From Spirosoma sp. KCTC 42546 (lineage in GTDB: Bacteria; Bacteroidota; Bacteroidia; Cytophagales; Spirosomataceae), in the NCBI RefSeq assembly GCF_006965485.1, contig NZ_CP041360.1:4010501-4074500 (forward strand): a stretch of 64,000 nucleotides of DNA, in the 5' to 3' direction. The notes beneath the pieces are model-generated. The model had not been told where the DNA came from. It ran no database searches and was given only the letters and a program-made list of their open reading frames with translations. Of this stretch, positions 30,416-40,597 are shown piece after piece. Position 1 is the stretch's first letter. Each line of letters starts with the position of its first letter. The translations under genes and the position numbers were made by a program.

Positions 30416-32035
30416 TTATATGGTTGGCAAACCCAACTCTTTTAAAAATTCATTGTGCTTTTCGGTATTCGCCAGAATGCTTTCATTGAGTAGAGCCAGT
30501 TTTGCATGTACGGCTTTTAAGTCAATCTGTACCTCGTCAATCGATGTGCTCACATATCTCGAAATGTTTAGGTTGTAGCCGTTCTTTTCAATTTCTTCCA
30601 GTGAAACCCGGCGGGCATAGCGCTCAATGTGTTCGGGCCGGTATTTGTACGTATCGACAATTCGACTTATGTGATTTTCGCTTAGACTGTTCTGCCGTTT
30701 TCCTTTGTCAAAATTTCCTTCTGAAGTTGCGTTGATAAATAACACATCATCCTGCTTTTTGCATTTTTTCAGGACTAAAATACAAACAGGAATACCCGTT
30801 GAATAGAACAAGTTAGACGGCAATCCAATGACTGTGTCAATGTGATTGTCTTTTAACAGTTTAGTACGAATTCGTTCTTCGGCACCGCCACGGAATAAAA
30901 CGCCGTGTGGCAGGATGATGGCCATTGTTCCTTCTGTTCCCAGAAAGTGAAAGCCGTGTAGCAAGAAAGCAAAATCTGCGGCTGATTTGGGGGCTAAGCC
31001 GTAACTCTTGAACCGAAAATCTTCGGCCAAGGTGTCGTTTGGTTCCCAACGCAGGCTGAATGGCGGATTGGCGACAACGGCATCGAACTCGATCTTTTTC
31101 GACGGATTTGGCTCGTTGAGTAAATCCCACTGGTTTTCTAAGGTGTCTCCGTGAAATATCTCAAACTCGGTGTCTTTCATACCGTGCAAGAGCATATTCA
31201 TTCGTGCCAGGTTGTAGGTGGTAATGTTCTTTTCCTGCCCGTAGAGTTTGCCGATATTACCGCCATTGTCCTTGATGCGCTTCCGGACGTTCAGTAGCAA
31301 AGAGCCTGAACCACAGGTAAAATCAAGTATCTTATCGAATTTCTTCTTTTTGCCCGAGCTAGGGTCTTGGCTGTCTAAGACGACAATTTCAGACAGGATG
31401 GTTGAAATTTGCTGGGGGGTATAAAACTCACCAGCTTTTTTGCCTGAACCGGCGGCAAACTCGCCGATCAAATATTCATAGGCATCGCCGAGGGTGTCTG
31501 AATCAGCCGAGAAATCGGCTATGCCTTCGGCAATTTTCTGAATGATGGTGCAGAGCTTTTTATTCCGTTCGGGTGACGTTTTGCCCAGTTTTTCAGAATT
31601 CAGGTTGATTTCTGAAAATAGCCCCTGGAAGGCCCGTTCAAACGATTCATTCTCGATGTAGCGAAAACCGGCTTCCAGCGTTACCAATAGCTCCGTGTTT
31701 TGCGTTCTGGCTAACTCGGTAATGTTGCTCCACAGGTGTTGGGGTTGTATCACATAATGCACCTTTCTACGCATTTGCTTTTCAAACTCCTGCACATCTG
31801 TTTCATTAGCTGCATACCAGACAGATAATGGTGTTCGCTTGTCGGTTCCATCCAATGTAGGATAGTCTGACCCTAATTCTTTTTTTGCCGATTCTTCATA
31901 GTTATACGACAGATACCGAAGGAAAAGAAACGAAAGCATATAATCACGGAAATCATCCGCGTTCATAGCCCCACGCAGTTGGTCTGCTATATCCCAAAGA
32001 GTTTTGCCCAGTTTTTGTTGTTCTTTAGTTGACAT
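30416..32035 (-). CDS. hsdM: Type I restriction-modification methyltransferase, HsdM
   Basis: The protein has 539 residues. It has the N-terminal HsdM helical domain (LWDIADQLRGAMNADDFRDY) and the SAM motif I at ILDFTCGSGSLLLNV (about residues 236-250). The catalytic NPPF motif is at 323-326 (DAVVANPPFSLRW), which marks an N6-adenine methyltransferase. With HsdS it modifies and protects the host DNA, and it is part of the HsdR2M2S complex. Unusually it is the last gene of the locus, about 1 kb beyond prrC, across a repeat and transposase block. A REP-type stem ends 29 bases upstream of its start codon. Confidence 0.96.
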   Translation of the reverse strand: MSTKEQQKLGKTLWDIADQLRGAMNADDFRDYMLSFLFLRYLSYNYEESAKKELGSDYPTLDGTDKRTPLSVWYAANETDVQEFEKQMRRKVHYVIQPQHLWSNITELARTQNTELLVTLEAGFRYIENESFERAFQGLFSEINLNSEKLGKTSPERNKKLCTIIQKIAEGIADFSADSDTLGDAYEYLIGEFAAGSGKKAGEFYTPQQISTILSEIVVLDSQDPSSGKKKKFDKILDFTCGSGSLLLNVRKRIKDNGGNIGKLYGQEKNITTYNLARMNMLLHGMKDTEFEIFHGDTLENQWDLLNEPNPSKKIEFDAVVANPPFSLRWEPNDTLAEDFRFKSYGLAPKSAADFAFLLHGFHFLGTEGTMAIILPHGVLFRGGAEERIRTKLLKDNHIDTVIGLPSNLFYSTGIPVCILVLKKCKKQDDVLFINATSEGNFDKGKRQNSLSENHISRIVDTYKYRPEHIERYARRVSLEEIEKNGYNLNISRYVSTSIDEVQIDLKAVHAKLALLNESILANTEKHNEFLKELGLPTI

Positions 32036-32063
32036 GGTTTGTTTTGTTAATCGGATTATATAC

Positions 32064-32244
32064 GGAATGGGCGTTACCCATTCCTATGGTATTACGCCCT
32101 TTCAGGGCTATTATGTATAGCCCTGAAAGGGCCACATCTCTTAACACAGGGTGACAGCCCTGTGCCACGGCAGCTACGGCAAGCAAAACCTATAGCCCTG
32201 AAAGGGCGGTATCTCACAGCACAGGGCTGTCACCCTGTGCTGTG
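32064..32244. repeat. REP-like hairpin cluster, left flank of transposase
   Basis: Bases 32064-32084 form GGAATGGG-CGTTA-CCCATTCC. GCCCT-TTC-AGGGC lies at 32096-32108, and GCCCT-GAA-AGGGC at 32120-32132 and 32195-32207. A 12-bp perfect stem lies at 32215-32226 and 32233-32244. The same hairpin types recur on the other side of the transposase, so they are likely its mobile substrates. Confidence 0.75.
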
Positions 32245-32245
32245 A

Positions 32246-32698
32246 TCAATCCCAAACATATCGTTCATCATACTCTACAGCATACTTCTTTAAAAAAGCT
32301 CGATATTCATCTTGAAAGGTCTTTTTACTATGATGCTCATGCTGATTGGCGATATAAGCGATTACCGTATCCACTTGAGATGGATTGACCGAAAAAGCAC
32401 CATATCCATCCTGCCAATAAAAATTACGGTAATCTTCTCCTTTAGTTTTTATCCATTTGGACGAATGTGACTTTACTTCTTCTACCAGTTTCATCAATGC
32501 TATTTTTTTGGAGAGTTTACAAAGGATGTGTATATGGTCGATGTAGCCACCCACTTTTATAGGTTGGCATTCCAGCTTATTGCAGATGCCTCCCAGGTAG
32601 CTATGTAATTCCTGTTCCACTGGTGGCTGGATGAATGGCAGCCTGTGTTTGGTGCTGAATACTACGTGGATATAATTTTGTACTAATGATTGTCCCAT
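32246..32698 (-). CDS. IS200/IS605-type Y1 transposase, RAYT-like
   Basis: The protein has 150 residues. It is a single-domain HUH endonuclease: the His-x-His motif is at residues 55-57 (DHIHILC), and the catalytic tyrosine is probably Tyr115 in VIAYIANQHEHHSK. The opening VQNYIHVVFSTKHRLPFI is characteristic of the IS200/IS605 TnpA and REP-associated tyrosine transposase group. It cuts and joins single-stranded DNA at hairpins. Both flanks carry arrays of hairpins of the kind such enzymes recognise. No TnpB accessory gene is present. The insertion splits hsdM from hsdS-prrC. Confidence 0.85.
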   Translation of the reverse strand: MGQSLVQNYIHVVFSTKHRLPFIQPPVEQELHSYLGGICNKLECQPIKVGGYIDHIHILCKLSKKIALMKLVEEVKSHSSKWIKTKGEDYRNFYWQDGYGAFSVNPSQVDTVIAYIANQHEHHSKKTFQDEYRAFLKKYAVEYDERYVWD

Positions 32699-32727
32699 AA
32701 TTTAGATAGTGTGCTCTATGTTATTAC

Positions 32728-32986
32728 GCCCTTTTAGGGCTTTATGGATGCTGTTCGTTGTTATCGCAGATGGAATGGGTGTTACCCATTCCTATGGTAT
32801 TATGCCCTTTCAGGGCTTGATGGGTGTTCGTTATTATCGGATGGAATGGGTGTTACCCATTCCTATGGTATTATGCCCTTTCAGGGCTTGATGGGTGAAT
32901 AGCCCTAAAGGGGCGTAATCTGTTAGCGATGGGCATCGTCCATCGCTGATAAAACAATCCCACACGCGGTCAAGCCCTGAAAGGGC
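32728..32986. repeat. REP-like hairpin cluster, right flank of transposase
   Basis: GCCCT-AGGGC stems occur at 32728-32740, 32804-32816, 32875-32887 and 32974-32986, with an imperfect one at 32902-32914. GGAATGGG-CCCATTCC stems occur at 32772-32792 and 32843-32863. The last two lie in tandem 71-base units. An AGCGATGG-CCATCGCT stem is at 32925-32947. These share sequence with the left-flank hairpins. Confidence 0.75.
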
Positions 32987-33019
32987 GTAATTATTAGGTA
33001 GTTGAATATCCATATTATG

Positions 33020-33108: not shown

Positions 33109-34230
33109 TTAAGCAAATATTTCAGGTAATTGAAAGTTGTGTGTATCCAAAAATGCGTTCAGTATTCTTTTAAATAGGTCTTTATTATCTTCATTCATTT
33201 CAGTAGGTTGATAAATGGAGTATTTTCCATGACTTAGCAAATTTAAAGCACGAGAGAACAGTACTTCATCATCCACACCATATATACATTTGGAAAAATC
33301 ATCGTAACCAAAAAAGGTTGACGTCTTTTCTAAAACACTACGTAACATATTAAAATGATAGGTATTTATTTTTGCTGAATCTGATACCTTTTTTAGTTCG
33401 GTCAACAAAGCAACGTGATGAAAAAACGGGGTGTCGTCTGTAGCTCTCAATACATAACCATCTGCTCCATTTTTATGTAAAAAGTGACTTTTGTGTCCAG
33501 TACTCCTGAGTTCGTTATACATCACATTGAAAAATAACGAGTGGTGTGTAGAAATAACAACTCTGACTTTTTCTTTTCCTCTTTTTAGTAATTGAGCTAA
33601 ATCACTGGCCACAGCAATAGCGTTGTTGTCATCAAGTGAAGAAATTGGGTCATCAATATAAATATGTCGAACCCAACTATACGACTCATCACCATCAATG
33701 GCTAACTCACATATAGCTAGAAAAATGCACCAAATGAAAATATTTTCTTCTCCTCTTGATACCTTGATATTATCCAGGATTATATATTCTGGCTCTTCTG
33801 CTTCTGGTCTAAACTTCGGATTTTTAATTTGCTTTCTAAAAACAATAGTCCAATCATCATAATTTATCGTAAAATTAAAATCGGTGTATCGTTCAAGAAA
33901 ATTAAAAATCTTTTCTTCAAGTGCCAGTTCCCTGAATCCTTCAAAAAATCTAGAACTTTTGTTGATGATTAGATGCCTTTCGGAGTCATTTTCAAGATCA
34001 TTGTTCCAATGAAAAAGGTCTTCTGTGTATGCATTGTAGTAGAGGGTATCTGTAACTGGGTTTTTCTTACGTTTCTTACTTATGTCTTTGAATTCCATGG
34101 AAAGGCGGGTTTTCCCCGTTCCATTGTAGGCATATAGCAAAACAAAATGATGATTATTTAAATCGTCTCGTAACCTGGTGGCTACTTTGGTTAAATCTTT
34201 GTATTTGTATAGTTTTTTTTGATCACTCAT
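33109..34230 (-). CDS. prrC: PrrC-type tRNA anticodon nuclease
   Basis: The protein has 373 residues (E. coli PrrC has 396). The N-terminal ABC-type ATPase shows Walker A AYNGTGKTR (34-42), the LYYNAYTEDLFHWNNDLE block, signature SRGEEN (158-163), Walker B YIDDPISSLDD (191-201) and the switch His in STHH (229-230). The C-terminal nuclease part carries the triad Arg297, Glu301 and His334 with spacing of 4 and 33, against 4 and 32 in PrrC (Arg320, Glu324, His356), in FNMLRSVLEKTSTFFGYDD and LLSHGKYS. In E. coli the enzyme is kept latent on the type I complex, is freed when phage T4 Stp inhibits restriction, and cleaves tRNA-Lys. It starts 3 bases after hsdS here, so its translation is probably coupled to hsdS. 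The substrate tRNA is inferred. Confidence 0.93.
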   Translation of the reverse strand: MSDQKKLYKYKDLTKVATRLRDDLNNHHFVLLYAYNGTGKTRLSMEFKDISKKRKKNPVTDTLYYNAYTEDLFHWNNDLENDSERHLIINKSSRFFEGFRELALEEKIFNFLERYTDFNFTINYDDWTIVFRKQIKNPKFRPEAEEPEYIILDNIKVSRGEENIFIWCIFLAICELAIDGDESYSWVRHIYIDDPISSLDDNNAIAVASDLAQLLKRGKEKVRVVISTHHSLFFNVMYNELRSTGHKSHFLHKNGADGYVLRATDDTPFFHHVALLTELKKVSDSAKINTYHFNMLRSVLEKTSTFFGYDDFSKCIYGVDDEVLFSRALNLLSHGKYSIYQPTEMNEDNKDLFKRILNAFLDTHNFQLPEIFA

Positions 34231-34233
34231 TCT

Positions 34234-35511
34234 CTAATCATTAATTTTTGGAAATAATCCTTGCATCAATCCCTTTTTATGCAACTTTAACTGCTCTATT
34301 TTCTCCTCTTGTGCCGTGATTAAAATATCTAACGAAGAAAGGCATTCAGCTATTTTTTGCTGTTCTTTTAGGTTTTCAGGATAAGCAAGAGAAAAACTTC
34401 CCATCTGTTCTAAATTCAGATTTGGTTGTGCTCCTACAGAAATACTTTTCTGAATATACCTTTGCATTATTTCAGATTTCAAAATATGTAAGATAAAGTT
34501 TTTATTTTCTTTTTCTTTCAATCTTACAATTGCTAGAGCTTGATTTGTATTGGCAGGTAAAATATCTTTTTTGACAATATTTACTTTTCCTATAGTTGCT
34601 CCTGCAATAGCGAATAGAATATCACCTTCCTTTAAAATAGAACGTTTTAATTCCTTAGTATGCGTATCTTCATCCACGAACATGCATTTGTCAAGAATAA
34701 TATGGTTATTTTGAAATGCTTCTATTTTTATGAAGCGAATCCCTGCCTTTGAAAACTTTTGAGGTGTCGTGCCTTTTGTAATTACTTCGCAAATACTTCC
34801 CAACTTCTTCTCCTCCCAATCTCCATCCTTCTCAAACTCAGGAAAACGCCATTTAGGAACCGTTTCGCCTTCTTGCGGAAACAAGTTTTGCATCAAGCCT
34901 TTTTTGTGCTCTTTTAAGGCGTATAATTTTTGACTGTGAGCGGCAATTACTTCATCTAAGGAAGAAAGGCAATCAGCGATTTTTTGTTGTTCTTCGAGAT
35001 TTCTAGGGGTTTTAAATTTAAGTTTATTTAAAGCAACCATTGTCAAAGCTTTTTGTGATGAACCAATTGCTGACGCTAAAATCTTTTCTTTTTCTACATC
35101 AAGCAAAACTTCTAAAAAGCCTGAATCTATTGTAATATTTTTCATCCAAATCAAATTCCCATCCTTAAAATAGAATTTGTCGTTGTTCTTAACACAATAA
35201 ACATTAGCCAATGTTCCTACGGCAGTAATCAAAATATCTCCTATTACTGGAACACCATATTTCTCTCTAATTGTATCATATTGCTCTTCTGAGATATACA
35301 AAATATCTTCTGGAATATTATTATTTTTTAATTGAGATATTTCCTTTCCTCTGAAAAAGGGAATACCATTTGAAACGTAATCAGCTAAATGAACTCTTTT
35401 ACTTGATGTTAATTCTGCAATTTCCCCCAATTTTTTCTCCTCCCACTCCCCATCCTTCAAAAACTCAGGAAAACGCAATTCGGGTATTAATTTATTCGTT
35501 TGGTTCTCCAT
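34234..35511 (-). CDS. hsdS: Type I restriction-modification specificity subunit, HsdS
   Basis: The protein has 425 residues with two target-recognition halves, each followed by a conserved coiled-coil arm. The start of each half is nearly the same (ELRFPEFLKDGEWEEKKLGE at 11-30; RFPEFEKDGDWEEKKLG at 222-238). The arm is also repeated (EEQQKIADCLSSLDEVIAAH at 173-192; KEQQKIAECLSSLDILITAQ at 382-401). It sets the bipartite DNA recognition sequence for methylation and cutting. Its start overlaps the end of the DUF1016 gene by 20 bases and its end is 3 bases before prrC. The region is distinctly AT-rich compared with the housekeeping genes, in line with acquisition by transfer. Confidence 0.95.
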   Translation of the reverse strand: MENQTNKLIPELRFPEFLKDGEWEEKKLGEIAELTSSKRVHLADYVSNGIPFFRGKEISQLKNNNIPEDILYISEEQYDTIREKYGVPVIGDILITAVGTLANVYCVKNNDKFYFKDGNLIWMKNITIDSGFLEVLLDVEKEKILASAIGSSQKALTMVALNKLKFKTPRNLEEQQKIADCLSSLDEVIAAHSQKLYALKEHKKGLMQNLFPQEGETVPKWRFPEFEKDGDWEEKKLGSICEVITKGTTPQKFSKAGIRFIKIEAFQNNHIILDKCMFVDEDTHTKELKRSILKEGDILFAIAGATIGKVNIVKKDILPANTNQALAIVRLKEKENKNFILHILKSEIMQRYIQKSISVGAQPNLNLEQMGSFSLAYPENLKEQQKIAECLSSLDILITAQEEKIEQLKLHKKGLMQGLFPKIND

Positions 35512-36535
35512 TGTTTTGTTGAGTGGCGTTTAATTCGTTCAGTATCAACGTTTGTAAGGCTGCCTGGGGCAGCAGTAGTTGGTACTCCGCAACGCCGATG
35601 GGTTTATTGATGTCTTGCAGGGCAATTTCTACGTCGAGGTGGTCTTTATCGGCGCAGAGAATGATGCCGATGGATGGGTTTTCGGTTTCGCTTTTTTCCA
35701 GCCGGTCGAGCAGGGAGAGATACAGATTCATTTTCCCTACATATTCGGCTTTGAAGCTACCAATTTTCAATTCAATGGCCACCAGCGAACGAAGGCCCCG
35801 GTGAAAGAAAAGCATGTCGACAAAATAGTCCTTGCCATTGTATTCCAGTCGGTATTGGTTGCCAATGAAGCTAAACCCTTTGCCCAATTCTAGAATAAAG
35901 GCTCTGATTTTGGCGATGAGTCTGTTTTCTAATTCCAGCTCTTTAACGGGTTCGGTAATGCCCAAAAATCCCAGATTATAGCTGCTTTTGAATACTTCAT
36001 TGGCATAATCGGCATGGGCCGCCGGCAGCGTCTGATCAAAATTGTGGGTTTTGATTTGTTGCTGCGCCTGCCCAAAACTGTCCAGTTTGATGGCATTGAG
36101 CAATAAATCTCTGGACCAGCCTTTCGTCAGGGTTTCGTTGGCGTAGAATTCGACAGCGTCAAGGGATTGTAGCTTATTAAGCAATAGTAAGTTATGACCC
36201 CAGGGCAAAACTGCGACAGCTTGTCGCAGTTTTGTATCGGCCTGATGATACCGCTCATAAAAGCGTTTCATGTCCCACAGGTTTCGCGGAGACAAACCCA
36301 TATTCGGAAACTCGTTTTTCAGGTCTGTGGATAATTGGTTAATTACACCGCTGCCATAGCCCTCTTCCAGTTGTTTTTCAGAAAGCAGCTTTCCCAGATT
36401 CCAGTAAACCGATTGCGTACTGCTGTTTACCTGTCGGGCAATCAGGATACGGGCCGTGTGGATTTGGCTAATCGCTTGCTCTACTAGGTCGGCATACGCG
36501 GCTTCGGTCAAGGGCGGTGGGGTTAGTTTACTCAT
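35492..36535 (-). CDS. DUF1016 (YhcG-type) PDDEXK nuclease-domain protein
   Basis: The protein has 347 residues. Residues 1-190 match the DUF1016 N-terminal domain (ARILIARQVNSSTQSVYWNL, then LSPRNLWDMKRFYERY, then WGHNLLLLNKLQS). The C-terminal PDDEXK nuclease shows Asp240 (DYFVDMLFF) and Glu255-x-Lys257 (AIELKIG). The family is uncharacterised and is often found inside or next to type I restriction loci. A role as a DNA nuclease or resolvase is a guess. It overlaps hsdS by 20 bases, so the two are probably co-translated. Confidence 0.88.
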   Translation of the reverse strand: MSKLTPPPLTEAAYADLVEQAISQIHTARILIARQVNSSTQSVYWNLGKLLSEKQLEEGYGSGVINQLSTDLKNEFPNMGLSPRNLWDMKRFYERYHQADTKLRQAVAVLPWGHNLLLLNKLQSLDAVEFYANETLTKGWSRDLLLNAIKLDSFGQAQQQIKTHNFDQTLPAAHADYANEVFKSSYNLGFLGITEPVKELELENRLIAKIRAFILELGKGFSFIGNQYRLEYNGKDYFVDMLFFHRGLRSLVAIELKIGSFKAEYVGKMNLYLSLLDRLEKSETENPSIGIILCADKDHLDVEIALQDINKPIGVAEYQLLLPQAALQTLILNELNATQQNNGEPNE

Positions 36536-36614: not shown

Positions 36615-37022
36615 TCATAAAGCTGACTTTTTACTATAGTACTTATTGTCAGGATGATTTACATTATACACTCTTTTAAATTCAAGGCTTTTTGCTCCAA
36701 AATTTATTAATAGTCCGATAGCTAAATTATAAGCCTGGCAATAATTCATTGCCTGTGCTAAATGCACATCTTCCAAACGTATTAAAGCTTTTAACTCAAC
36801 CATTATAGTTTCTTCAACAAAAAAATCAACCCGTCGAGTACCAATATCAAACCCATCGTAGAATATGGTCATCTCCATTTCTCGTTGGTATATCAGTCCT
36901 TGTTTTTGCATTTCAATAGCCAGAGCACGTTAATAAATCACTTCCTGAAAGCCATTGCCTAACGTACTATGAACCTTCATCGCACAGCCAATAATTTTAT
37001 GTGTTAATTCATCAAGTTTCAT
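36615..37022 (-). pseudogene. GxxExxY protein gene with in-frame stop
   Basis: The gene reads from ATG at 37022 as MKLDELTHKIIGCAMKVHST and then GNGFQEVIY, the GxxExxY signature of a small PDDEXK-like family. Codon 31 is TAA (36932-36930) where a Gln codon would fit. The frame then continues in full to 36615, with RRVDFFVEETIMVELKAL holding the Asp/Glu-x-Lys nuclease-like residues. An internal ATG at 36911 would give a 98-residue product lacking the signature. A simple CAA to TAA mutation explains it. It lies 37 bases past the hsdR stop. Confidence 0.8.
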
Positions 37023-37058: not shown

Positions 37059-40000
37059 TCAGACATCATACGCGGCTAACCCGGCTATCTCACGCCCTTC
37101 GGCTATTTTCTTTAATTGGGGCACCAGGTCCTCCATTAGGGCCAGTTCTTTGAGTCGGCGTTGTTTCCAGCCAAGTTCCAGCGGCTCCAACAGATCGGTG
37201 AGTTTTTCGCCGTCGAAGATCATCCGGCTCATAATGCCATCGACAAAGGCTTTCAGGTCAGCCGTTTGCAAACCGTGTTTGTTGGCAATGACCGCCAGTT
37301 CCTTTTCGTTTTTCTCAACTTTAAACGTATCGTAGCCTTTGGTTAACGTAGTCGTATCCTGTCCGCTGTTCCAGTCCAGGCTGTTGATGTAATCCGTTAA
37401 GTCTTCCTGCTCGTCCATCAGGTTGGCATTGGCACTCAGCAAACTAATCACCTGCTCTTTGGTCATTTTTTGCCGGGCGGGTTTCTTCTGCGTACTGTCG
37501 GCAATCAGGCTCATAATGTAGTCGTAGTCGATCACGGCCGACGCAAACAGCACAAATTCAAAATCCAACTGCTGAATGTCGGGCGGTGCGAAGTCGCCTT
37601 CTTTTTGCTGTATTTCCTTAAGCTGTTTAGCGGTTTCCAGATACGAGCTTCTAAACTCCTGCAAGGTTTCTTTAGGCAAAATGGCTTCTATTTTAGCCTG
37701 CTGTACCTCGTCTAAATCGGTGTATTGGTCTAGCTGGGTTTTCAGCCGTTGGACTTCCTTAAAGTTTTTCACAAAGGCAATTCGGGCAGCATCTCCTTTC
37801 AGGTTGTACACTTCCTGCGGTTCGTTTACCAGATTATGCTGTTGCATGAAGCTGCCTAAGGCTTCAATGGCTTTCTGATATTTTTCAATCACCACAGGCG
37901 CAGGGTCAACGAGCCAAATCTCTTTGGCTTGCCCGTTGTCTTCACCAGAAAAGAGGGCAATAGCCTGGTTTACGGCGTCTTGTTGAGAGCGAAAATCTAA
38001 AATGTTGCCGTACGGTTTGGTATCGTTCAGCACCCGGTTGGTTCGGGAAAACGCCTGTATCAACCCGTGGTATTTCAGGTTCTTGTCCACATACAAGGTA
38101 TTCAGGTATTTGGAATCAAACCCGGTTAGCAACATATCCACCACGATGGTAATGTCGATTTTGTTTTTGTGGGGATAGTCTTTGTTGCTGTATTTCTGGT
38201 CTTTTATCCGGCTTTGCACATCCTGATAATACAAATCGAACTCGTTGATCGAATGACTGGTACCATATTGCTTGTTGAAATCAGCAATAATTTCGATCAG
38301 TGCTTTTTTCTTCTCTTCAGGGTTATGTTTGTTATCTTCTTTCTCCTGCGTTAAATCTTCCTGTAATTGTTTTATATCCGCAGCATTCTTTTGGCTTTGC
38401 TGGTCGCCGTCTTTTGCAATGAGCTGCGCCGGTGGAGAGAACACACAGGCAATGTTTAACGGAACATACAGGTCGTCGGCTTCTTTCTTTTTCTTCTGAC
38501 TATTTTTGAACAGCTGATAATACTCGATGGCGTTATTGATCGAAGCGGTTGCCAATACGGCATTGAAACGCCTTGAATTGGTAGCCGCATTGTGTTTGTT
38601 CAAAATAGCTTCTACGACAGCCTGTTGCGCAATCGGTTCACCAGGTTTGGCGTTTTGCGTGCCTTTGCCTTTGAAATAGTCGATATGAAAACGCAATACA
38701 TTTTTGTCCTCAATGGCGTGGGTAATGGTGTACGCGTGTAATTGCTTCTTAAAAATATCCTGAGTGGTTATATTGGTCTTCTCTTCGCCATCAATTTGCT
38801 TGTAAGCCGCATTTTCATCAAAAATAGGTGTACCGGTAAAGCCAAAAAGCTGAGCATTTGGAAAAAACTCCTTGATGGCTTGGTGGTTATCGCCAAACTG
38901 CGAACGATGGCATTCGTCAAAGATGAACACCATCCGCTTGTTGCTCAACGGCTCCAGACGCTCTTTGTAATTTTTCTTGTACGTGCCGTCTAACGCTAAC
39001 CCTAGCTTTTGAATGGTTGTAACTATTACCTTGTCGGCATAATCAGTAGATAATAAACGTCTTACCAATGTTTCTGTATTGGTGTTTTCTTCTACGCTGC
39101 CTTCCTGAAATTTATTGAACTCTTCGCGGGTTTGCCGGTCAAGGTCTTTGCGGTCAACAACAAACAAACATTTTTCAATATCGGGATTATCTTTCAGTAG
39201 GGTAGAGGCTTTGAACGAAGTCAATGTTTTACCACTGCCGGTCGTGTGCCAGATATAGCCGTTGCCCCGATTTTGATGAATGCAATCGACAATGGCCTTT
39301 ACCGCGTAAATCTGATAGGGCCGCATCACGAGCAATTTTTGCTCGCTTTCTACCAGCACCATGTACTTGCTAATCATTTCGCCAAGAGTACACTTGGTTA
39401 GAAATTTTTCGGTAAATGAGTCAAGCTGCGTTATTTTCTTGTTTTTCTCATCGGCCAATTGATAGATGGGCAAAAACTGTTCATCGGAATTGAAAGCAAA
39501 ATGCTGATTTTTATTGTTGGCAAAGTAGTAGGTATTGGTTCTGTTGCTCACGATAAACAACTGCATATAGCAAAGCAGCGAGTTTCCATACCCATTACCG
39601 GGTTCGTTTTTGTAGTCCACGATTTGCTCCATAGCCTTACGAGCCGTGATGCCTACGTTTTTAAGTTCGATTTGCACGATAGGCAAACCGTTGATTAGCA
39701 GAATAATGTCGTACCGTTGATGGCTGTTTTCTGTATTGATGCGTAACTGGCTAATTACTTCAAAATCATTTTTGCACCAGTCTTTATTATTTACCAGTGT
39801 GTAATGAAGTGGCGTTCCGTCCTCACGTTGAAAGTAGTTCCGTTCACGCAGAAGTTTTGACGCAGCAAACACATCAGGATTGATGATTTCTTCCCGTAAG
39901 CGTAAAAACTCATTCTCTGAAAGCCGGACACGATTAAGTGCTTCAAATTTAGTTTTGAAGTTTTGCTCAAGCGTTTTCCGATCAACAATCTCGGGTCGAT

Positions 40001-40064
40001 AGATGTATTTAAGCTCTGTAAGTTGCTTAATCAGGCCTTCTTCTAGTTGGTTTTCTCTACTCAT
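37059..40064 (-). CDS. hsdR: Type I restriction endonuclease, HsdR
   Basis: The protein has 1001 residues. The nuclease domain has Asp119 and Glu133-x-Lys135 (RYDIILLINGLPIVQIELKN). The SF2 translocase follows, with motif I TTGSGKT (274-280), the DECH box (382-385, FDECHRSQFG), LFGFTGTPIFDE, and the later helicase motifs VDMLLTGFDSKYLNTLYVDK and QAFSRTNRVLNDTKPYG. The C-terminal helical domain contacts HsdM. With HsdM and HsdS it pulls DNA through the complex and cuts far from the recognition site. It is the first gene of the island here, transcribed leftwards from beside the tRNA-Val gene, which is a less usual gene order. Confidence 0.97.
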   Translation of the reverse strand: MSRENQLEEGLIKQLTELKYIYRPEIVDRKTLEQNFKTKFEALNRVRLSENEFLRLREEIINPDVFAASKLLRERNYFQREDGTPLHYTLVNNKDWCKNDFEVISQLRINTENSHQRYDIILLINGLPIVQIELKNVGITARKAMEQIVDYKNEPGNGYGNSLLCYMQLFIVSNRTNTYYFANNKNQHFAFNSDEQFLPIYQLADEKNKKITQLDSFTEKFLTKCTLGEMISKYMVLVESEQKLLVMRPYQIYAVKAIVDCIHQNRGNGYIWHTTGSGKTLTSFKASTLLKDNPDIEKCLFVVDRKDLDRQTREEFNKFQEGSVEENTNTETLVRRLLSTDYADKVIVTTIQKLGLALDGTYKKNYKERLEPLSNKRMVFIFDECHRSQFGDNHQAIKEFFPNAQLFGFTGTPIFDENAAYKQIDGEEKTNITTQDIFKKQLHAYTITHAIEDKNVLRFHIDYFKGKGTQNAKPGEPIAQQAVVEAILNKHNAATNSRRFNAVLATASINNAIEYYQLFKNSQKKKKEADDLYVPLNIACVFSPPAQLIAKDGDQQSQKNAADIKQLQEDLTQEKEDNKHNPEEKKKALIEIIADFNKQYGTSHSINEFDLYYQDVQSRIKDQKYSNKDYPHKNKIDITIVVDMLLTGFDSKYLNTLYVDKNLKYHGLIQAFSRTNRVLNDTKPYGNILDFRSQQDAVNQAIALFSGEDNGQAKEIWLVDPAPVVIEKYQKAIEALGSFMQQHNLVNEPQEVYNLKGDAARIAFVKNFKEVQRLKTQLDQYTDLDEVQQAKIEAILPKETLQEFRSSYLETAKQLKEIQQKEGDFAPPDIQQLDFEFVLFASAVIDYDYIMSLIADSTQKKPARQKMTKEQVISLLSANANLMDEQEDLTDYINSLDWNSGQDTTTLTKGYDTFKVEKNEKELAVIANKHGLQTADLKAFVDGIMSRMIFDGEKLTDLLEPLELGWKQRRLKELALMEDLVPQLKKIAEGREIAGLAAYDV

Positions 40065-40506: not shown

Positions 40507-40522
40507 AGACAACGTGTCCCGG

Positions 40523-40597
40523 TAGGAAGTAGCGGGCTCGAACCGCTGACCTCTGCTCTGTCAAAGCAGCGCTCTGAACCAACTGAGCTAACCTCCT
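40523..40597 (-). tRNA. tRNA-Val (anticodon GAC)
   Basis: Reading leftwards, the acceptor arm AGGAGGT pairs with ACTTCCT (one G-T pair). The D arm is GCTC and GAGC around the AGTTGGTTCA loop. The anticodon stem CTGCT/AGCAG encloses the 7-base loop TTGACAG with GAC at the anticodon position. The T arm AGCGG/CCGCT carries the TTCGAGC loop. The length is 75 bases and CCA is not encoded. Its 3' end faces the restriction island, a common integration side for mobile islands. Confidence 0.9.

Follow-up and report, generated by a model that had tools for sequence, protein, structure and literature searches.

A 64,000-nt stretch of the Spirosoma sp. KCTC 42546 genome (contig NZ_CP041360.1, positions 4,010,501 to 4,074,500), here termed the window, carries a type I restriction–modification (R-M) locus in which a prrC gene is embedded. 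The genes lie on the minus strand in the order hsdR, GxxExxY, DUF1016/YhcG, hsdS, prrC, Y1 transposase and hsdM (Table 1). The prrC open reading frame (ORF) has an ATG start and encodes 373 amino acids (aa). As the original prediction had stated, it is directly behind hsdS, with 3 nt between the hsdS stop and the prrC start.

The window gene is a PrrC. By profile, alignment, tree and neighbourhood alike, both this identity and the placement within a type I R-M locus, as first proposed, are supported. The PADLOC PrrC model PDLC02360 matches residues 6–367 (E=2.5e-137), and Pfam assigns AAA_13 (E=6e-15), with a Rad50/SMC-type head at residues 8–275. The profile search had been named beforehand as one check that could overturn the identification; the protein falls in PrrC and not among nuclease-free ATPases. 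With 373 aa and an uninterrupted ATP-binding cassette (ABC) NTPase domain, it is inside the PrrC range of 341–416 aa given in PMC2610378. The reference used for the Escherichia coli protein, EcoPrrC of the EcoprrI locus, is locus L014 on the IncY plasmid CP057875.1, annotated as hsdM, hsdS, 'anticodon nuclease' and hsdR. Its 396-aa protein has D287, R320, E324 and H356 at the published residue numbers (PMC2610378; PMC3014915), and the window protein, similar in length, shares 32.7% identity with it across 343 aligned positions. Searches of PDB sequences found no match to the window protein at E≤10, three matches to the E. coli reference (E 0.03–0.6) and two to a PrrC profile (E 0.4–0.6), with no PrrC among either set.

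The PrrC family has been known since the 1980s, and the window prrC is a true though unremarkable member of this widespread group. At least 8000 candidates match the window protein at E≤0.001; among the matches listed, the closest other protein is 88% identical. PrrC matches are present in 113 of 72,556 plasmid records. A prophage origin was considered and rejected, with zero matches across 50,697 phage records. An AAA_13 search of the host genome returned the window gene as its sole match at E≤0.001, and thus no second AAA_13 protein.

The Walker A, signature and Walker B motifs are where they had been predicted in the 373-aa ORF. Conservation was assessed in an alignment of 235 rows, made up of the query, 114 ORFs from related loci (with a few duplicates) and 120 database proteins, among them the query itself. 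Locus ORFs outside 340–460 aa were excluded; among the 80 loci of the neighbourhood survey described below, these are L049, where prrC is in two pieces, and L053, which a contig end truncates. The candidate catalytic residues R297, E301 and H334 align to R320, E324 and H356 of EcoPrrC. The proposed likeness to PrrC holds for the residues and needs a slight correction for the spacing, which is R-X3-E-X32-H in the window and R-X3-E-X31-H in EcoPrrC. R297 is kept in 235/235 rows, E301 in 234 and H334 in 234, in a set that includes duplicates and many close relatives; the exceptions are an E301 to D change in database protein P0091 and an H334 to R change in L087, a metagenome contig. Conservation this near to complete is not chance. 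A fourth residue, R327 (R349 in EcoPrrC), is kept in 224/235 rows and was absent from the original prediction. It forms with H334 an Rx6H motif of the HEPN type (Rx4-6H), and PMC3710099 assigns PrrC and RloC to the HEPN superfamily. In the predicted model of the C-terminal part, a four-helix bundle, R297 and E301 share one helix, R327 is on the next long helix and H334 follows directly after it; the VIA alignment of this model covered Foldseek's 240 best chains.

Table 1. Features of the prrC locus, in window coordinates
Feature	Position	Strand	Evidence
hsdM, methyltransferase subunit	30416..32035	-	domain; PDB matches
Repetitive extragenic palindrome (REP)-like GCCCTGAAAGGGC repeat region between prrC and hsdM	32056..32991		repeat search
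IS200-like (Y1) transposase within REP-like region	32246..32698	-	Pfam Y1_Tnp, E=2.7e-26
Perfect 22-bp hairpin with 3-nt loop	33020..33066		minimum free energy -36.3, z -9.5 over 109-nt stretch
prrC, 373-aa PrrC-family anticodon nuclease, ABC-type NTPase and C-terminal four-helix nuclease domain	33109..34230	-	ORF; PADLOC; Pfam; tree
Predicted four-helix nuclease domain, putatively HEPN-like, residues 269-364	33139..33426	-	model (predicted local distance difference test 84.6, predicted template modelling score 0.79); VIA-align
Candidate catalytic residues R297 (33340-33342), E301 (33328-33330), R327 (33250-33252), H334 (33229-33231)	33229..33342	-	alignment
Segment aligned to EcoPrrC tRNA-contact region (Eco 284-294), D265/D266 at wobble-contact D287	33415..33447	-	alignment
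ABC signature VSRGEE (residues 157-162) to Walker B IYIDDP (residues 190-195)	33646..33762	-	motif; alignment
PrrC-specific block YYNAYTEDLFHWNNDL, residues 64-79	33994..34041	-	clade tally; invariant alignment columns
Walker A AYNGTGKT, residues 34-41	34108..34131	-	motif; N36, G39, K40, T41 kept in 233-234/235 rows
hsdS, specificity subunit, two Methylase_S-matched stretches	34234..35511	-	Pfam, E=6e-37
DUF1016/YhcG nuclease-domain protein, accessory gene	35492..36535	-	Pfam; PADLOC PDC-S02
GxxExxY/PDDEXK_3 protein, accessory gene	36615..36911	-	model match begins at position 34-35; listed ORF without N-terminal part
hsdR, restriction subunit, EcoR124_C domain	37059..40064	-	domain; PDB relatives

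By sequence, the partner of the window PrrC is an EcoR124-like type I system, because its HsdR and HsdM match EcoR124II and the same PDB chains are also a close match to the HsdR encoded next to the E. coli reference (2184 bits). The HsdR matches are five chains, all 1038-aa HsdR; 4be7 is named EcoR124II, and 2w00 has the same sequence as 7bst, the entry of the EcoR124II HsdM. HsdM matches 3lkd, an unnamed type I M subunit (E=7e-110), EcoR124II (E=3e-84) and EcoKI (E=8e-12). HsdR and HsdM are thus closer to EcoR124 than to EcoKI, the result looked for in a type IC system, and PrrC orthologues are described as invariably linked to type Ic systems (PMC2610378). The suggestion of another partner complex fails in that this is no new kind of enzyme. 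It survives in a divergent backbone (HsdM 36% and HsdR 33% identical to the neighbours of the reference) and in another gene order. EcoPrrC and the window PrrC share the NTPase motifs, the triad, an acidic residue at the wobble-contact position, an hsdS directly upstream and an EcoR124-like HsdR, but the E. coli order is hsdM-hsdS-prrC-hsdR, as found in the E. coli-type loci L014, L017, L018, L180 and L182, whereas in the window hsdR comes first and hsdM last.

A survey of 80 related loci, drawn from genome records that carry a title, shows that the window arrangement recurs. Downstream of prrC, hsdM is present in 78 of them; upstream, hsdR is present in 74 and hsdS in 72, and 69 loci have all three in place. 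In none of the 80 was a same-strand hsdM found in the 9 kb upstream of prrC. Of the 11 incomplete loci, eight have prrC near a contig end, and in L027, L032 and L058 no hsdS was recognised upstream of prrC. Among 395 Bacteroidota genomes, the host included, 33 have a match to the window protein at E≤0.001, 23 of them strong (E<1e-37) and 10 weak, and eight of the weak ones are in frames of 728–770 aa, the size of other AAA_13 ATPases. Neighbourhoods were examined for 17 of the 22 strongly matching genomes other than the host. A separate set of 59 genomes, comprising the host and its relatives, contains seven that match the family at E≤0.001, with four strong matches (G000, G015, G032 and G050). 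The loci also contain variable genes, namely RhuM, ORF6N, DUF1828/1829, Schlafen AlbA_2 and DUF1016. Those of the RhuM family (Pfam PF13310) are found at several places in the operon (L029, L041, L045, L063, L072, L094, L196 and L205).

It is very likely that the window PrrC is an anticodon nuclease that guards its own type I R-M enzyme. The silencing, trigger, tRNA cutting and target proposed here are drawn from relatives. PrrC would be made together with HsdS and be kept inactive on the HsdR/M/S complex. Once the complex is blocked by a phage factor, perhaps with a nucleotide signal acting alongside, the Rad50-like NTPase half would free the C-terminal HEPN-like half. The freed nuclease would then cleave the host's tRNA-Lys(UUU) in its anticodon loop, on the 5′ side of the wobble base, and translation and with it phage growth would stop.

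The target is probably the usual tRNA-Lys, and the suggestion of a possibly different tRNA is the weaker one. This expectation is based on an acidic residue at the position of EcoPrrC D287, on the presence of tRNA-Lys(UUU) in the host and on a system of the same gene order that hits tRNA-Lys. D287 is the presumed point of contact with the modified wobble base (PMC3014915). Its counterpart is D265 or D266 by alignment, where indels make the register uncertain by one residue. The column is acidic in 88/90 rows of the clade to which the window PrrC belongs (D in 73, E in 15) and in 8/8 rows of the E. coli clade. Searches with the Rfam tRNA model and ARAGORN, in which 30 of 42 tRNA matches became loci, found two tRNA-Lys(UUU) genes among the 30 loci examined, with the anticodon loop CTTTTAA. 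The tRNA-Lys of E. coli has the same anticodon loop.

The system of the same gene order is PrrC170, cloned from Klebsiella quasipneumoniae as HsdR, HsdS, PrrC and HsdM and 35% identical to EcoPrrC (PMC11555353). Its expression leads to growth arrest, tRNA sequencing identified tRNA-Lys as its target, and it defends against phages T1 and T7 (PMC11555353). It differs from the window system in coming from the Gammaproteobacteria, and PMC11555353 names no accessory genes between HsdR and HsdS. Two plasmid copies of the window clade, L010 from E. coli and L016 from K. quasipneumoniae (Tokyo), display the PrrC170 order, with additional genes separating hsdR from hsdS, and their identity to the E. 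coli reference is 35.1%. Because these copies share both the order and an identity of about 35% to EcoPrrC, PrrC170 very probably belongs to the window's clade, a placement made from gene order and the identity value. An alternative is that the window PrrC has a diverged recognition segment and cuts a tRNA other than tRNA-Lys. The segment aligned to EcoPrrC 284–294 does vary between clades, and substrates may vary since this sequence varies among PrrC proteins (PMC3014915). However, the wobble-contact position is acidic almost throughout the window and E. coli clades, and PrrC170 targets tRNA-Lys; another target is thus unlikely, though it retains some weight.

Comparison of the related loci points to toxin exchange on a conserved restriction complex, and this is the more interesting point than the window gene itself, which alone is one more Bacteroidota member with the gene order of the recently tested Klebsiella system. 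The PrrC tree has 108 rows and divides into three types: 8 rows of the E. coli type, 10 of a third, Bacteroidota type and 90 of the window type. The E. coli and third types each form one side of a branch (Shimodaira–Hasegawa-like approximate likelihood ratio test, SH-aLRT, 100), and the window type consists of the other 90 rows (SH-aLRT 87). All trees come from quick searches in which SH-aLRT is the sole support measure, and a program warning flagged long branches separating the PrrC clades.

The third clade (L173–L179, L181, L184 and L189) shares with the window the slot between hsdS and hsdM, a similar HsdM and HsdR, and the triad. Its PrrC proteins are 29–34% identical to the window PrrC, have R297, E301 and H334 in 10/10 rows, and match the PADLOC PrrC model in 5/5 tested. 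They differ at the wobble-contact column, with K in five, N in four and S in one and thus none acidic, and at the R327 column, where only 2/10 have the HEPN arginine; the alignment is uncertain at both places. A further difference is in block 64–79. Ten of its 16 positions were tallied by clade and nine share their main residue across all three PrrC clades; T69 is S in 10/10 third-clade rows. At a guess, the YYNAYTEDLFHWNNDL block may hold the published 15-residue N-domain 'PrrC box'. The order hsdR-hsdS-prrC-hsdM is found in 8/10 third-clade loci; L189 begins at hsdS at a contig end and L184 is without a recognised hsdR beside hsdS. Compared with the window proteins, HsdM is 69–84% identical in 8/10 (51% in L184, and in pieces in L179) and HsdR is 65–84% identical in the seven loci with a full-length HsdR.

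The third type shows what looks like random scatter in the HsdM tree, where its 8 rows need 8 changes, at least six of them forced by starred branches. This tree is without the third-clade L174 and L179 and the E. coli-type L183 and L100, which have no HsdM ORF of 440–640 aa. When L184, with its long branch, and the E. coli type are also left out, the 7 third-type rows need 7 changes, all forced. In the HsdR tree, which is without the E. coli type and L179, L184 and L189 (no HsdR of 850–1150 aa), 7 third-type rows need 6 changes, again all forced. The window clade is represented by 90 rows in the PrrC tree, by 87 in the HsdM trees and by 73 in the HsdR tree. Among the top 30 hsdM matches from the 395 genomes (69–100% identity, the window's own included), a window-type PrrC is upstream in five and a third-type PrrC in eight; 17 have no PrrC in the up to 1.5 kb upstream that was examined, some of them cut by a contig end.

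As the third type is one clade in the PrrC tree but scattered in the HsdM and HsdR trees, prrC and the R-M backbone seem, by these quick trees, to have recombined at least six times, and repeated exchange of the toxin gene appears to be the simplest reading of the conflict. Two other histories weigh against it, since the same disagreement between trees would arise from ancient tandem copies that underwent different losses or from a transfer of the hsd genes instead of prrC. No report of such PrrC exchange was found in a limited search of the literature. Following the exchange reading further, it is tentatively proposed, at somewhat less than even confidence, that the hsdS–hsdM interval acts as an exchangeable effector slot, where two anciently separated PrrC lineages have been swapped at least six times on one conserved complex. 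The complex would then silence and fire anticodon nucleases that differ from each other, probably in tRNA target as well, and docking would depend on the few features common to both lineages. Type I enzymes carry three PrrC lineages, two of which were apparently exchanged in one slot, and there is a clade-specific change at the presumed contact to the modified wobble base. Together these constitute a natural experiment that bears on how an R-M complex holds PrrC and on what sets the choice of tRNA, and the notion of the same guard with a different toxin head becomes testable.

The window locus is unusual in the distance between prrC and hsdM, which is 1073 nt compared with a median of 8.5 nt in 78 loci, 58 of which have a gap of ≤30 nt. 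The gap is occupied by the repeat region with its transposase and by the hairpin, which starts 42 nt downstream of the prrC stop and may separate the prrC and hsdM transcripts. In a Larkinella locus (L020), the nearest named relative, there are similar repeats in a 258-nt gap with no transposase ORF. Pfam did not confirm the Y1-type transposases that had been suspected by eye at the corresponding position in L198 and L207. The long gap and the hairpin's z of -9.5 could signify a decayed or mis-expressed copy, in which the insertion parts the toxin from part of its silencer and the gene is silent or otherwise controlled. This is improbable: prrC, hsdS, hsdR and hsdM are all open with the expected domains, an active PrrC without HsdM would be expected to make the strain inviable, and L092 has a Y1 transposase between prrC and hsdM yet retains hsdR, hsdS, prrC and hsdM. 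That the protein is an RloC-like or other AAA_13 ATPase acting alone, unrelated to the R-M enzyme, is already disfavoured and highly improbable: only the general AAA_13 family is above the Pfam cut-off and weaker PADLOC matches to PDC-S06 and LmuB exist, but the PrrC model matches far better, hsdM follows prrC in nearly all surveyed loci, and RloC, which shares the ABC NTPase and the C-terminal R-E-H triad, carries a coiled-coil/zinc-hook insert, has roughly double the length (658–897 aa) and is rarely linked to R-M systems (PMC2610378), whereas the window translation contains no CXXC.

Fusions of prrC were also detected. In genome G015, of the same genus, an E. coli-type prrC with an intact triad is fused in frame to HsdR (L100:9564-12011); HsdR is joined from about residue 585 on and its N-terminal part is absent. 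Among the first four database matches inspected, P0121 and P0124 are also PrrC–HsdR fusions, and P0122 and P0123 are not. The PrrC part of P0121 stops before the triad, and the protein start of P0124 is cut. Upstream of hsdR in the window is a tRNA-Val(GAC) gene at 40521-40597. Integration of the locus at this gene was considered and rejected, as exact repeats of it elsewhere in the window reach at most 12 nt and the window thus holds no attachment repeat.
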